Positions 532 through 4,786 of a stretch of 64,000 bases of DNA are shown here, in pieces. Position 1 is the stretch's first letter. Each line of letters begins with the position of its first letter. The stretch spans positions 187,184 through 251,183 of the forward strand of contig NZ_RKQK01000002.1 in assembly GCF_003814915.1 (NCBI RefSeq). The letters are read 5' to 3'. Position numbers and translations under genes: made by a program. The notes under the pieces are model-generated. The model was not told the origin of the DNA, did not search any database, and worked only from the letters and a program-made list of their open reading frames with translations. This DNA is from Pacificibacter maritimus (GTDB lineage Bacteria > Pseudomonadota > Alphaproteobacteria > Rhodobacterales > Rhodobacteraceae).

Positions 532-2280
532 TTAGCTCAGCTCGGTAAAATCGCTTTCAGAGTGCTCCTCATCAAAGGTAGCAAGCGGAAATTCTACTTT
601 GATTTGGTAAAGGTGTTCAGTGTCTAAGACTTCGAGCGTTCCACCAATTTGACGTGCAAAAGCACCTATCAACCCCTGCCCCAAACCTGTGCCGCTTGCT
701 TGGTCTGGCGAGGTCAGTGGGATCCCCTTACTGTTTTCAATGATCAGGATGCCACGGTCCTTCGTGAGTTTTTCAAGTGTCACGACGATGCGGGGGCGCT
801 CGCCCTTGGTGTAGCCAAGATATTTCAGGGCATTCGTAATGCTTTCCGCCGCCAAAAGCGACAAAGGCACCGCCTGATCGGGATAAAGCGTTATCGGATC
901 ATAGCTGACTTTGGAATCCAGTCGTACTTCATTGGGCAAACCAGCAGACAACAAAGTTCCGATGATGCTATTCAACAGTTCATCAGCGCGCACGCGCCCT
1001 TCGGTACTGGTTTCATAGAGATTACGATGGACCATCGCGATGCTCATCACGCGCCCTTGCACTTCTTTCAGCGCAACGCGGGCCTCAGGGCTGCGCGCTT
1101 TGCGCATTTTCATATTCACGATAGAGGCGATCAATTGCAAATTGTTCTTTACGCGATGATGTACCTCTTTCAGCAAGACCGTTTTATCGTGAATGGTGCC
1201 TTCAAGCTCAGCCTCATCTCGAATAATCTGCTCAGCCAAATTGCGCCATGCCAGATCAATTTCACGCACTTCAATCGGCGCGCTGTTGTCGACGGGTATG
1301 TCATTGTGCCGCCGCGTTCGCGTGAACCGCAACATATCGCGCCCCAATCGGCGGATGTGTTTGATAACCAATCGGTCCACCGCGAAATAGGCAACCCCAA
1401 GACAGGTCAACCACATCACAATCGGAAAAATCATCGGTGTCGCCATTGCCAATCCAGGGGCGACCGATAGGTTCGTGCGAGACCAACTGCCGATTGCATA
1501 GATTTGGTTGGGCAAGATGGGAACAACGGCAAAGACCCGTCTTTCGCCCTCTCTTGTTTCACCTGAAAACGCGATCCGTTGTTTTTGAGCCAAATCCGCC
1601 AGTGATCGCCCTACAGGCAAGTGCTTACCCACGTCCCGTAATCCGCTTTCGGCGCTCAAAACATCGCCGTCTTTGTTAAAAGTCACAAGCGTCACAGGAC
1701 GACCATCAGGAATTTGTTCAAAGTCGATATTCATTTCACGGCTGGGCAAGGACACGGCCACATAGCCTTGGAAAATATTGTCGATGAAAACAGGTGTCGA
1801 AAGCACGATCACCGTGGTTTTGCTAATTGGCCCAAAGCGCACAAGATCACTGCGCACAGCGGGATTTTCACGCATTCCTTGGTAGACAGGATTTTCAGAA
1901 AAATCGAACCCATCCATGTCAGAACCGCATTGCAAAATGCCATCCACGTCAACAAAACCCGAAAATGAAAAATCTGGATTGTCTTCGATGAAATCCGCAA
2001 AAATGTCGCTGCAGGCATCAGTGCTTTTTAAAACGGCCCCCATGACAGCCGCCAAAGCATTCGAACTGCCAAAACCAGCGCGAATCAAGGCCTCTTCACG
2101 TTGTGCTGCTTGAGATGTAAGGGCCAACAAAGCCGCTTCTGCACGTTGATCGGCGGCCTGCGCAAATTGGTGTGCAAGGGAAACAGAAATCAATCCTATC
2201 GGAAATAAAGCAAGCGATAACAGGACTGCGATACGAAACCATAGCCTATGAATAAGGCGCAAGCTTAGTTTCATCTTCAC
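532..2280 (-). CDS. Membrane sensor histidine kinase, HisKA_2 type, of the general stress response
   Basis: A 582-residue sensor kinase. Residues 12-36 form a first membrane helix, 40-275 an extracytoplasmic sensor region, and 282-304 a second helix, followed by a short linker. The HisKA_2 phosphoacceptor box HHRVKNN lies at 374-380, with His374 the likely phosphorylation site. The ATPase domain follows, with an N-box (ESITNALKY) and a G-box (GTGLGQGLIG). Kinases of this family next to nepR-ecfG (PhyK-like) control phosphorylation of PhyR in alphaproteobacteria. The gene is last in nepR-ecfG-kinase and overlaps ecfG by 4 bp (ATGA), implying translational coupling. The signal it senses cannot be read from sequence. 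Confidence 0.9.
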   Translation of the reverse strand: MKMKLSLRLIHRLWFRIAVLLSLALFPIGLISVSLAHQFAQAADQRAEAALLALTSQAAQREEALIRAGFGSSNALAAVMGAVLKSTDACSDIFADFIEDNPDFSFSGFVDVDGILQCGSDMDGFDFSENPVYQGMRENPAVRSDLVRFGPISKTTVIVLSTPVFIDNIFQGYVAVSLPSREMNIDFEQIPDGRPVTLVTFNKDGDVLSAESGLRDVGKHLPVGRSLADLAQKQRIAFSGETREGERRVFAVVPILPNQIYAIGSWSRTNLSVAPGLAMATPMIFPIVMWLTCLGVAYFAVDRLVIKHIRRLGRDMLRFTRTRRHNDIPVDNSAPIEVREIDLAWRNLAEQIIRDEAELEGTIHDKTVLLKEVHHRVKNNLQLIASIVNMKMRKARSPEARVALKEVQGRVMSIAMVHRNLYETSTEGRVRADELLNSIIGTLLSAGLPNEVRLDSKVSYDPITLYPDQAVPLSLLAAESITNALKYLGYTKGERPRIVVTLEKLTKDRGILIIENSKGIPLTSPDQASGTGLGQGLIGAFARQIGGTLEVLDTEHLYQIKVEFPLATFDEEHSESDFTELS

Positions 2281-2867
2281 TGACGTTCTCCGGATACTGG
2301 CATTTGCGCGCCCAAAACGGCCTTTGTTTGTTGATCTGTTAGATCCAAGGGTTCGCCTTCGTTGAGATCCAACATTTCACCCAGCTTCAAACGGGCACGG
2401 TTCACGCGGCTTTTGACGGTGCCAAGTGCAACACCACACGTTTCTGCCGCCTCTTCATACGAAAATCCCATCGCGCCAACCAGCATCAAAGCTTCGCGCT
2501 GTTCGGTTTTTAGCTGAACAAACGCCTGCTCGAACTCTGCCATAGCAAGGCGCCCGTCGTGGTCTGGTTTTTCTGAAAGGCCTGCGGCGAAAACGCCATC
2601 AGTGTCTTGAACTTCACGCTTACGTTTGCGTTGATCTGAGTAAAATGTATTGCGTAGGATTGTAAAAAGCCAAGCACGCATATTTGTGCCTGCCTGAAAG
2701 CTGTTGAGGTTTTCCCATGCTTTCATGATGGCATCTTGAACCAAGTCGTCGGCCTGACTGGAATTGCGTGTCAAGCTTAGGGCGAAAGCGCGCATCGCGG
2801 GCAAATGCATGACGATTTCTTGAGATGGATCGGCCACGGCTTGACCCTCATCAACGAGATTATCCAT
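2277..2867 (-). CDS. ecfG: EcfG-type sigma factor of the general stress response
   Basis: An ECF15-group sigma factor. Region 2 is visible as FALSLTRNSSQADDLVQDAI and the -10-binding part as AWLFTILRNTFYSDQRKRKR; region 4 is EQREALMLVGAMGFSYEEAA followed by the TVKSRVNRARLKL helix. It directs RNA polymerase to GGAAC-N17-CGTT promoters and is held by NepR until PhyR is phosphorylated. I chose the ATG at 2867, which overlaps the nepR stop by 8 bp (ATGGATAA). An in-frame start at 2897 would add ten poorly conserved residues. The gene also overlaps the downstream kinase gene. Promoters matching its consensus occur at four places in the first 4.5 kb. Confidence 0.93.
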   Translation of the reverse strand: MDNLVDEGQAVADPSQEIVMHLPAMRAFALSLTRNSSQADDLVQDAIMKAWENLNSFQAGTNMRAWLFTILRNTFYSDQRKRKREVQDTDGVFAAGLSEKPDHDGRLAMAEFEQAFVQLKTEQREALMLVGAMGFSYEEAAETCGVALGTVKSRVNRARLKLGEMLDLNEGEPLDLTDQQTKAVLGAQMPVSGERQ

Positions 2868-3009
2868 GATTTGCATCTTGTTGACGCAACTGTTCAAGCA
2901 GGTCTAAGAACCGATCAGGCACCTGCTCATCCAGCGTTTTTTGATACACTTTGCGCAGGTTCTCTTCGATTTGCTCTTCGAGAGGAGTTTTTGGTTCATC
3001 TTGATCCAT
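2860..3009 (-). CDS. nepR: NepR anti-sigma factor
   Basis: A 49-residue ORF upstream of ecfG, short enough to be missed by length cut-offs. Its centre (LRKVYQKTLDEQVPDRFLDL) is the conserved NepR signature, two amphipathic helices that clamp EcfG. In the known partner switch, phosphorylated PhyR captures NepR through its sigma-like domain and frees EcfG. The start is the ATG at 3009; a weak GGCGG lies 5 nt upstream. The stop overlaps the ecfG start, so the two are probably made in a fixed ratio. The leftward EcfG promoter at 3064-3089 lies about 55 bp upstream, giving positive feedback on inhibitor and sigma factor together. Confidence 0.92.
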   Translation of the reverse strand: MDQDEPKTPLEEQIEENLRKVYQKTLDEQVPDRFLDLLEQLRQQDANHG

Positions 3010-3056
3010 TATTCCGCCTAATTCCTACCTTGATTTAACATTTTTTTACATCTTAC

Positions 3057-3082
3057 GGAACTTAACGCATACCATAGGCGTT
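3057..3082 (+). promoter_or_regulatory. EcfG promoter for phyR
   Basis: GGAAC at 3057-3061, 17-bp spacer, CGTT at 3079-3082: an exact EcfG consensus about 35 bp upstream of the phyR start. Its -35 and -10 elements interleave with those of the opposite promoter, since GGAACTTAACG (3057-3067) is the reverse complement of 3079-3089. Confidence 0.9.
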
Positions 3083-3089
3083 AAGTTCC
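3064..3089 (-). promoter_or_regulatory. EcfG promoter for nepR-ecfG-kinase
   Basis: On the minus strand the sequence reads GGAAC (3089-3085), a 17-bp spacer, then CGTT (3067-3064), an exact match to the EcfG consensus. Transcription would start near 3057, giving a leader of about 48 nt for nepR. The element shares an inverted repeat with the phyR promoter. Confidence 0.9.
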
Positions 3090-3116
3090 CGAGAAAACAA
3101 AAAATAGGACAAAAAA

Positions 3117-3929
3117 ATGTCGACAGCTACTACGCAAACGTCTTTGGCCACGGTCGTTGCAAACCTTTTGCCATATTTGCGTCGCTACGCACGCGCTTTG
3201 ACGGGGGATCAAGACACTGGAGATAAATACGCGGCAATTACGCTTGAGGCACTTTTGAACGACCGCAGCGTCTTTGAACAAATCGAAAGCCCGAAGGTCG
3301 CGCTCTTTCATGCTTTTCATTTGATTTGGTCCAGTGCGGGCGCGCCGACTGGCGAAGATGAAACAGGTATCGCCAAACGCGCCCAAGCGCACCTTCGCCG
3401 CCTAACAGTGAACACACGCGAGGCACTTTTGTTGCGCACGATCGAAGGGTTTTCCTTAGATGAAATTGCAGCCATTATGGCGACTGATGAGGACGACGTG
3501 GAACACCTGTTATCTGTTGCACAAGATGAGATGTCTGACAGCATTTGCGGTCGTGTGATGGTGATCGAAGACGAAGCGATCATCGCCCTTGATTTGCAGG
3601 GCATTGTGTCTGACATGGGACATAAGATTACTGGCGTCGCAACGACCCGCACCGAAGCGCAGGCTTTGTTTTCCCAAGACAAGCCAGATTTGATTTTGTC
3701 AGATATCCAACTGGCAGACGGTTCAAACGGCATCGACGCTGTAAATGACATTTTGAAACAGCACCCTGATATTCCTGTCATCTTTATCACGGCCTTCCCC
3801 GAGCGTCTTTTGACAGGGGATCGTCCTGAGCCTGCCTTCGTCATCACCAAACCTTACAGCGAAGAGCAAGTGACCTCAGCTGTGAGCCAAGCGATGTTTT
3901 TCTCAAGCACTGAAACGCTAAACGCGTAG
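3117..3929 (+). CDS. phyR: PhyR, anti-anti-sigma response regulator
   Basis: A 270-residue protein. Residues 10-140 form a sigma-factor-like domain resembling EcfG (LLPYLRRYARALTG, then a region-4-like helix around EGFSLDEIAAIM). Residues 147-265 form a receiver domain with acidic pocket E151/D152, phosphoacceptor D196 in LSDIQ, and the conserved lysine in ITKPYS. On phosphorylation the sigma-like domain binds NepR and releases EcfG. It has its own promoter 35 bp upstream, an AGGA ribosome site, and ends before a strong terminator at 3987-4027. It diverges from nepR-ecfG, the standard alphaproteobacterial arrangement. Confidence 0.95.
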   Translation: MSTATTQTSLATVVANLLPYLRRYARALTGDQDTGDKYAAITLEALLNDRSVFEQIESPKVALFHAFHLIWSSAGAPTGEDETGIAKRAQAHLRRLTVNTREALLLRTIEGFSLDEIAAIMATDEDDVEHLLSVAQDEMSDSICGRVMVIEDEAIIALDLQGIVSDMGHKITGVATTRTEAQALFSQDKPDLILSDIQLADGSNGIDAVNDILKQHPDIPVIFITAFPERLLTGDRPEPAFVITKPYSEEQVTSAVSQAMFFSSTETLNA

Positions 3930-4126: not shown

Positions 4127-4300
4127 CTAGACGGGTGGCTTGCCGCGCACTGCACGGGCAACCATTGCGATCACAAACAAGATGGCAAAGATCACAAACA
4201 ACAATTGCGCGATCCCTGCGGATGCACTGGCGATCCCGCCAAATCCAAACACGCCTGCAATCAATGCGACGATAAAAAAGGTAAGTGCCCAACCTAACAT
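4127..4300 (-). CDS. DUF1328 (YtjA-family) small membrane protein
   Basis: A 57-residue ORF, too short for common length filters. The start [20 protein letters not shown] and the glycine/alanine-rich centre ([18 protein letters not shown]) are diagnostic of DUF1328. Two membrane helices are evident (about residues 4-24 and 31-49) with a basic C-terminus. Members are stress-associated inner-membrane peptides of unknown activity. An exact EcfG promoter lies 52 bp upstream (4352-4377), so it is probably part of the general stress regulon. A ribosome site (AAAGGAG) precedes the ATG. Its 3' UTR holds the C-rich hairpin at 4045-4112. Confidence 0.9.
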
Positions 4301-4351: not shown

Positions 4352-4377
4352 AACGCGCACTCCGCTTGAAAGGTTCC
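4352..4377 (-). promoter_or_regulatory. EcfG promoter for the DUF1328 gene
   Basis: Minus strand GGAAC (4377-4373), 17-bp spacer, CGTT (4355-4352). Exact consensus, 52 bp from the DUF1328 ATG. It lies back to back with the promoter at 4400-4425. Confidence 0.88.
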
Positions 4378-4399: not shown

Positions 4400-4425
4400 G
4401 GAACATTTTCGCGGTTCTCTGCGTT
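4400..4425 (+). promoter_or_regulatory. EcfG promoter for the DUF883-holin operon
   Basis: GGAAC at 4400-4404, 17-bp spacer, CGTT at 4422-4425, 35 bp before the DUF883 ATG. Same spacing as the other three EcfG promoters in this window. Confidence 0.9.
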
Positions 4426-4459: not shown

Positions 4460-4786
4460 ATGGCACGTACAGACACAGCAAAAGCTGCCGAAAAAACAAC
4501 CGCTGATTTGGAAAAACAGATTGAAACGCTCACGAAAGATGTTGCCGCGTTGGCAACTGCGATGAAAGCCGACGCCAAAGCGAAATCCAACCAATTGGGC
4601 GAAGCTGCGTCAGAAACTTTAGATATAGCACGTCAAAAGGGCGTCGAGACCGCTGAGCTTGCACGTCAACAAACACGTGACGCAGTGGCAGTGGCCGAAC
4701 AGACTGTGCGCGCAAATCCTGGCGCGGCAGTTGGCGTAGCAGCACTGGCAGGTTTTGTTACGGGTATTGTGGCATCGCGCCGCTAA
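4460..4786 (+). CDS. DUF883 (ElaB/YqjD-like) membrane-anchored protein
   Basis: A 108-residue protein. Residues 10-80 form an Ala/Lys/Glu-rich coiled coil; the last 25 residues form one membrane anchor (GAAVGVAALAGFVTGIVASR) ending in Arg-Arg. This matches DUF883 proteins such as E. coli YqjD and ElaB, C-tail-anchored stress proteins reported to bind ribosomes. A strong AAAGGAG site precedes the ATG. The gene is first in an operon with the holin-like gene, paralleling the yqjD-yqjE pair, and has its own EcfG promoter, so stress induction is expected. Confidence 0.85.
   Translation: MARTDTAKAAEKTTADLEKQIETLTKDVAALATAMKADAKAKSNQLGEAASETLDIARQKGVETAELARQQTRDAVAVAEQTVRANPGAAVGVAALAGFVTGIVASRR

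Follow-up and report, generated by a model that had tools for sequence, protein, structure and literature searches.

A 33-bp palindrome between nepR-ecfG and phyR in Rhodobacterales probably holds two fully overlapped EcfG-type promoters

We analyzed a stretch of 64,000 nucleotides from Pacificibacter maritimus, referred to here as the window, which carries the genes of a general stress switch (Table 1). The genes for the anti-σ factor NepR, the σ factor EcfG and a sensor kinase lie on the minus strand, divergently from phyR, and a spacer of 107 bp separates nepR from phyR. As described in PMC5830050 and PMC4814048, NepR holds EcfG, and phosphorylated PhyR binds NepR and thereby frees the σ factor. 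According to the latter source, EcfG promoters usually drive both nepR-ecfG and phyR, which creates positive feedback and probably keeps the stoichiometry of the components. The EcfG consensus has been printed as GGAAC-N16-CGTT or as GAAC-N16,17-C/GGTT (the latter in PMC4814048).

Table 1. Genes, predicted promoter boxes and EcfG-type sites in the window (positions are those of the window)
Feature	Position	Strand	Details
HisKA_2/HWE sensor kinase gene beside ecfG	532..2280	-	Pfam HisKA_2, E 1.3e-22
ecfG, general-stress ECF σ factor	2277..2876	-	Sigma70_r2 and Sigma70_r4_2; ATG at 2876
nepR, anti-σ factor, 49 aa	2860..3009	-	Pfam NepR PF18557, E 2.2e-14; end overlaps ecfG start
Interlocked palindrome with both predicted promoters	3057..3089	.	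11-bp arms and 11-bp centre
Predicted phyR promoter, −35 box	3057..3061	+	GGAAC, consensus; 0 mismatches in 122/122 first-set interlocked loci
Predicted nepR-ecfG promoter, −10 box	3064..3067	-	CGTT; CGTT in 71/122 relatives, xGTT in most
Predicted phyR promoter, −10 box	3079..3082	+	CGTT, 17 bp 3' of own −35; CGTT in 81/122 relatives
Predicted nepR-ecfG promoter, −35 box	3085..3089	-	GGAAC; 0 mismatches in 122/122 interlocked loci
phyR, response regulator and anti-anti-σ factor	3117..3929	+	PhyR_sigma2, E 2.8e-24; Response_reg, E 1.3e-13; PhyR_sigma-like
Ordinary non-overlapping EcfG-type site	4352..4377	-	GGAAC-N17-CGTT; faces DUF1328 gene (4127-4300)
Back-to-back partner site	4400..4425	+	GGAAC-N17-CGTT; faces DUF883-like gene (4460-4786)

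The spacer contains a perfect palindrome, whose left arm, GGAACTTAACG (3057-3067; GGAAC, TT at 3062-3063, AACG), and right arm, CGTTAAGTTCC (3079-3089; CGTT, AA at 3083-3084, GTTCC), flank a centre of 11 bp (3068-3078). Direct reading confirmed the statement of the initial annotation that the arms are exact reverse complements and that both strands read GGAAC-N17-CGTT between nepR-ecfG and phyR. The boxes expected of σEcfG (ECF15), GGAAC and C/GGTT at a distance of 16 to 17 bp, are thus present exactly on both strands, and the element lies shortly upstream of nepR-ecfG and phyR, which are known to be controlled by EcfG. Each −10 box sits 2 bp inside the −35 box of the opposite promoter; the two −10 boxes are separate, with 11 bp between them. 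The distance from the −10 box to the start codon is 34 bp for phyR and 54 bp for nepR. A repeat finder additionally reported a longer, weaker 30-nt pair around the arms with 73% complementarity.

To gauge how often this arrangement would arise by chance, we resampled the 107-bp spacer 200,000 times with a first-order Markov model. GGAAC-N15-18-CGTT occurred on the plus strand in 260 and on the minus strand in 193, both opposed consensus sites occurred together in 3, and the interlocked order occurred in none. At up to two mismatches, the interlocked pattern was found at this locus only in the whole 3.08-Mb genome. The single motif GGAAC-N17-CGTT was not enriched genome-wide, with 19 matches versus 68 for a reversed control pattern; these 19 comprise 17 other sites and the palindrome once per strand, and 11 of them fall inside open frames longer than 150 amino acids. 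This indicates that the meaning of the motif rests on its place and its conservation.

We examined the conservation of the spacer in 292 genomes of the same order (Rhodobacterales, with one family label throughout), 198 of which contain a PhyR at an E value of at most 1e-40. Upstream regions were taken from 150 first-set places and 58 second-set places (52 genomes), giving 208 loci, of which 201 have a divergent nepR (145 first-set and 56 second-set) and the 7 without a detected one were dropped. A 135-bp fragment (L496, from G103) and weaker second PhyR places in eight genomes (G043, G044, G059, G075, G077, G137, G228 and G258) were left out. The 94 genomes without PhyR at this threshold suggest that the general stress switch has been lost repeatedly in the order. 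One of the genomes without PhyR at E 1e-40, G260, is of the same genus as the window and consists of a single contig of 3.1 Mb.

Distances from each GGAAC to the next GTTCC in the 201 loci, taken with no regard to the −10 boxes, fall into two groups, one of 158 pairs at 21 to 24 bp and one of 13 pairs at 17 to 18 bp; only 3 of the pairs up to 40 bp apart fall outside these ranges. Counted by locus, 157 have the interlocked spacing, 12 to 13 have a shorter form of 27/28 bp, and 31 have neither. The initial annotation had considered full interleaving much less usual than plain divergence, which is wrong for this order: with 157 of 201 nepR/phyR spacers, the interlock is the normal arrangement here rather than a peculiarity of the genome under study. 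In 139 of the 157 loci, an xGTT stands at 16/17 bp in both promoters, while the other 18 have it on the phyR side only (9), on the nepR side only (8) or on neither (1). When all four boxes were fitted with at most 3 mismatches in 18 positions, 122 of the 145 first-set loci matched, 55 of them perfectly, compared with 3 of 435 Markov resamples. The proposal that two opposed EcfG-type promoters with interleaved boxes lie here is supported, and the consensus of both is conserved across the order. The initial annotation had named as evidence against it that close relatives might lack the second consensus; such a loss is not seen in the two same-genus genomes with phyR (L051 and L052, both exact interlocks) but does occur in other genera, where the nepR-side promoter alone survives.

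An exact scan for the interlock pattern, with two centre lengths, in one genome per species (257 billion bases) gave at least 116 matches. Among the matches listed, 107 were at nepR or phyR (99 with both genes, 5 with phyR only and 3 with nepR only), and 9 were next to neither gene. By simple arithmetic, chance alone should yield ∼7 exact matches in this many bases, close to the 9 off-locus matches among those listed, which suggests that the arrangement is essentially specific to the nepR/phyR locus. Among 80 of the listed matches, all nepR/phyR matches that carry a genus name belong to genera that we take to be Rhodobacterales. The nepR-ecfG/phyR module was also seen on plasmids with an interlock at no more than one mismatch (L422, L423, L425, L429 and L430), the hosts being Dinoroseobacter shibae (pDSHI02), Ketogulonicigenium vulgare, Gemmobacter aquarius, SC52 and Roseicitreum antarcticum. 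Roseobacter litoralis and strain S2214 carry the module on plasmids without a clear interlock.

Conservation within the 122 interlocked first-set loci follows the promoter boxes. Both −35 boxes are without a mismatch in every locus, the −10 boxes are GTT-rich with 55 mismatches for the nepR-ecfG promoter and 42 for the phyR promoter, and the centre away from the boxes carries less than 0.3 bits per position, except for the base beside each −10 box. Both promoter spacers measure 16 to 17 bp in 121 of the 122 loci, and centres of 10 and of 11 bp are about equally common. Such variation in length is tolerated by σ factors but usually not by fixed dyads. In loci that have lost the interlock, the boxes that remain are the −35 and the −10 of a single promoter: of 23 such first-set loci, 22 retain the complete nepR-side promoter, as do 7 of 8 in the second set, while the whole left arm is kept in 0 and the right arm in 3 of the 23. 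Taken together, box conservation, 16/17-bp spacing and loss promoter by promoter argue for two promoters and against an operator or a hairpin. We thus consider it likely, from the sequence comparison, that the palindrome is a divergent pair of σEcfG promoters, for nepR-ecfG and phyR, fully overlapped on 33 bp.

It is improbable, in our estimate, that one promoter alone works and that the other is there as a side effect of the symmetry or as a relic. This would agree with the 31 of 201 loci without overlapped spacing, 29 of which keep the nepR-side promoter, with the 18 of 157 interlock-spaced loci in which one or both −10 boxes are not xGTT, and with the text of PMC5830050, whose passages on Rhodobacter sphaeroides give a start for the nepR side only. 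A relic should, however, have decayed at the divergence of these loci (median identity of 58% over the adjacent 340 bp), and the invariant −35 boxes and similar −10 mismatch counts on the two sides speak for two maintained promoters. Still far less probable is that a dimeric transcription factor uses the palindrome as its operator and that the likeness to promoters is secondary, since the perfect dyad symmetry and the agreement of variable arm positions beyond shuffles (identical 11-mers in 33 of 93 loci versus 17.9) are set against half-sites at no fixed distance (centre of 10 or 11 bp, arm gaps of 1 to 3), loss by promoter and not by arm, with elements vanishing in diagonal promoter pairs, and boxes that equal the EcfG consensus exactly and recur in a different order in other taxonomic orders. 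An intrinsic terminator was rejected, as the region 2800-3300 contains no terminator-like site, that is, no GC-rich hairpin followed by a T run.

The agreement between the arms persisted after thinning to 63 clusters (z of about 3.3), and it was absent when sought in 41 back-to-back promoter pairs. Among 41 disjoint pairs of nearest relatives, the two arms changed jointly in 10 versus 7.4 expected (p 0.16) and symmetrically in 6 versus 2.3 expected (p 0.017). The phylogeny-aware test being weak, arm covariation is only suggestive of an enforced symmetry; selection for balance, mutation templated by the inverted repeat or shared ancestry could account for it.

The shorter form, a 27/28-bp palindrome of the type GGAACC-N15-GGTTCC, was found between nepR and phyR at 12 loci from genera g8, g13 and g37 (L461, L472-L474, L476-L479, L481-L483 and L485). 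L487 has GTTCC at both distances, making it a thirteenth 27/28-bp locus as well as an interlock with one mismatch. In this form, the complement of one −35 box contains an xGTT at the right distance and may therefore serve as the opposite −10 box, so that the boxes would be physically shared between the strands. At loci that have lost the phyR-side promoter (mostly genus g7), a CTTGTGCGCAC / CTTGTGTGCAC element is conserved at the expected start of the nepR transcript (L118, L126, L141, L142, L145-L148, L153, L159, L161, L164, L171, L175, L186, L198 and L199). The only back-to-back pair in the order, with 39 bp between the −35 boxes, is L112. In its genus, g75, two further loci (L187 and L456) are interlocked; such mixed packings within a genus show that packing can change over short distances.

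For a view outside the order, we collected four further samples (one at class level and the orders of G295, G571 and G487), in which 72 of 88 loci have a divergent nepR; the 16 class-level loci L345-L360, most of them with too little phyR sequence to orient, were left out of the counts. Here, back-to-back packing is usual: 45 box pairs lie at 5 to 10 bp in the 72 loci, and in 41 loci both promoters are complete and their −35 boxes stand 5 to 10 bp apart. In the order of G487, L332 looks interlocked with one mismatch, and no pair comprising both promoters was found in L420 and L421. Another 7 pairs at 17 bp, mostly from the order of G295, reflect an extra GTTCC 3' of the phyR −10 box. This box may mark a second nepR promoter and an intermediate step from one packing to another. 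GTTCC follows the phyR −10 box directly in L334, L376, L384, L386 and L388, and at least L334 also has a back-to-back pair.

If the palindrome is a divergent promoter pair, a simple sequence of events can be proposed. Following the established partner-switch model, stress would lead to phosphorylation of PhyR and thus to freeing of EcfG, and EcfG-RNA polymerase could then bind the single site in either direction. Firing of both promoters, as predicted from their boxes, would raise inhibitor, σ factor and activator alike, amounting to positive autoregulation. Transcription is predicted to start at about 3089 on the plus strand and 3057 on the minus strand, and melting at one promoter should also open the −35 box of the other. 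Because each promoter lies inside the footprint of the other (the 26-bp cores overlap), two polymerases very probably could not occupy both promoters together, judging from the geometry. Hypothetically, such exclusion would leave the two initiation rates in a ratio that does not depend on free EcfG and would set an upper limit to their sum; a toy binding calculation also has exclusive binding fix the output ratio, which is arithmetic and not evidence.

What the overlap is for, if anything, is a separate question. With somewhat less than an even chance, the interlock is a historical accident of a short spacer and has no regulatory effect beyond ordinary co-induction, a reading about what the overlap does, which can hold alongside the divergent promoter pair. 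A single origin could explain the spread of the interlock, the same kind of spacer is also packed back to back (in L112 and in the 41 loci outside the order), and E. coli has bidirectional promoters without competition at basal activity (PMC12825309). In the same source, competition at five such promoters was slight at basal activity and became marked once one direction was strengthened. Against an accident stands the distinct second overlapped geometry of 27 bp in 12 to 13 of 201 loci, which suggests that overlap itself is tolerated or favoured in the order.

The stoichiometry of σ, anti-σ and anti-anti-σ factor decides the response of a partner switch. Co-regulation has been suggested to preserve this stoichiometry (PMC4814048). 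The initial annotation proposed that the inhibitor-σ operon and the activator gene would compete for the site and that this may set their ratio under stress, a role that is so far hypothetical. A more far-reaching possibility, which we regard as rather unlikely, is that in Rhodobacterales the core of the stress feedback loop is a single exclusive two-way promoter with a few discrete packings (33-bp interlock, 27-bp strand-shared boxes and, elsewhere, back to back), and that overlap was selected because exclusive binding would keep the initiation ratio of inhibitor-σ factor to activator constant at all EcfG levels, halve the ceiling and damp noise, with the arms tending to stay matched.

One of the surveyed genomes, G094, which we take to be very probably R. 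sphaeroides 2.4.1, has a perfect interlock in its spacer, GGAACCGAACG-N10-CGTTCGGTTCC. A Crp-type gene lies 3' of its phyR, as is stated for R. sphaeroides in PMC5830050. In that work, after 7 min, phyR mRNA was raised 2- to 3-fold with singlet oxygen, paraquat and diamide and not with membrane stress, while ecfG (RSP_1272) mRNA was raised with membrane stress only, in a PhyR-dependent manner. The differential RNA-seq reported there supports a promoter upstream of nepR, and the text of that section mentions no phyR start. Since different stresses raise phyR and ecfG mRNA, the two outputs are not simply coupled in R. sphaeroides, and this pattern does not fit a simple fixed-ratio device. A symmetric promoter served by one σ factor predicts joint induction, which points to other promoters, regulators, mRNA decay or directional competition in this organism.

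The locus shares its genes, consensus, dual control by EcfG and positive feedback with the alphaproteobacterial ECF15 promoters of nepR-ecfG and phyR described in PMC4814048; the descriptions of divergent EcfG promoters given there do not mention overlap. For the two GSR loci of Rubellimicrobium thermophilum, promoters were predicted by GGAAC-N16-17-C/GGTT (PMC12148442); this organism has an exact interlock in our data set (L258), and neither "palindrom" nor "divergent" occurs in the main text of that report. The bidirectional promoters of Warman and co-workers in E. coli (PMC12825309) are each one short pseudo-symmetrical site with two exclusive polymerase orientations, as is predicted here, but they have one shared −10 box, with divergent starts within it or to either side, and starts 10, 18 or 23 bp apart. 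In the window, the −10 boxes are separate, −35 and −10 boxes are interleaved, about 32 bp separate the predicted starts, and the σ factor is of the ECF type. The two −10 boxes being distinct, the element was not assigned to the Warman type. We found no description of interlocked EcfG promoters in an open-access full-text library. What appears to be new is thus the overlap of divergent, autoregulated EcfG promoters, which would act like a bidirectional promoter without the shared −10 box that defines one.

Across a whole order, one small DNA site would then serve both sides of the stress switch. The natural variants (interlocked, 27-bp shared, back to back and with one promoter lost) form a ready-made comparison set, and these spacers bear on whether promoter exclusion sets the ratio, the ceiling or the noise of the stress response.

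The window contains a second pair of EcfG-type sites downstream of phyR (Table 1), whose −35 boxes lie 22 bp apart and from which the DUF1328 and DUF883-like genes diverge. The DUF883-like assignment is based on a weak DUF883_C match below the Pfam cutoff. DUF1328 genes were also observed near phyR in several plasmid records and in S. meliloti.
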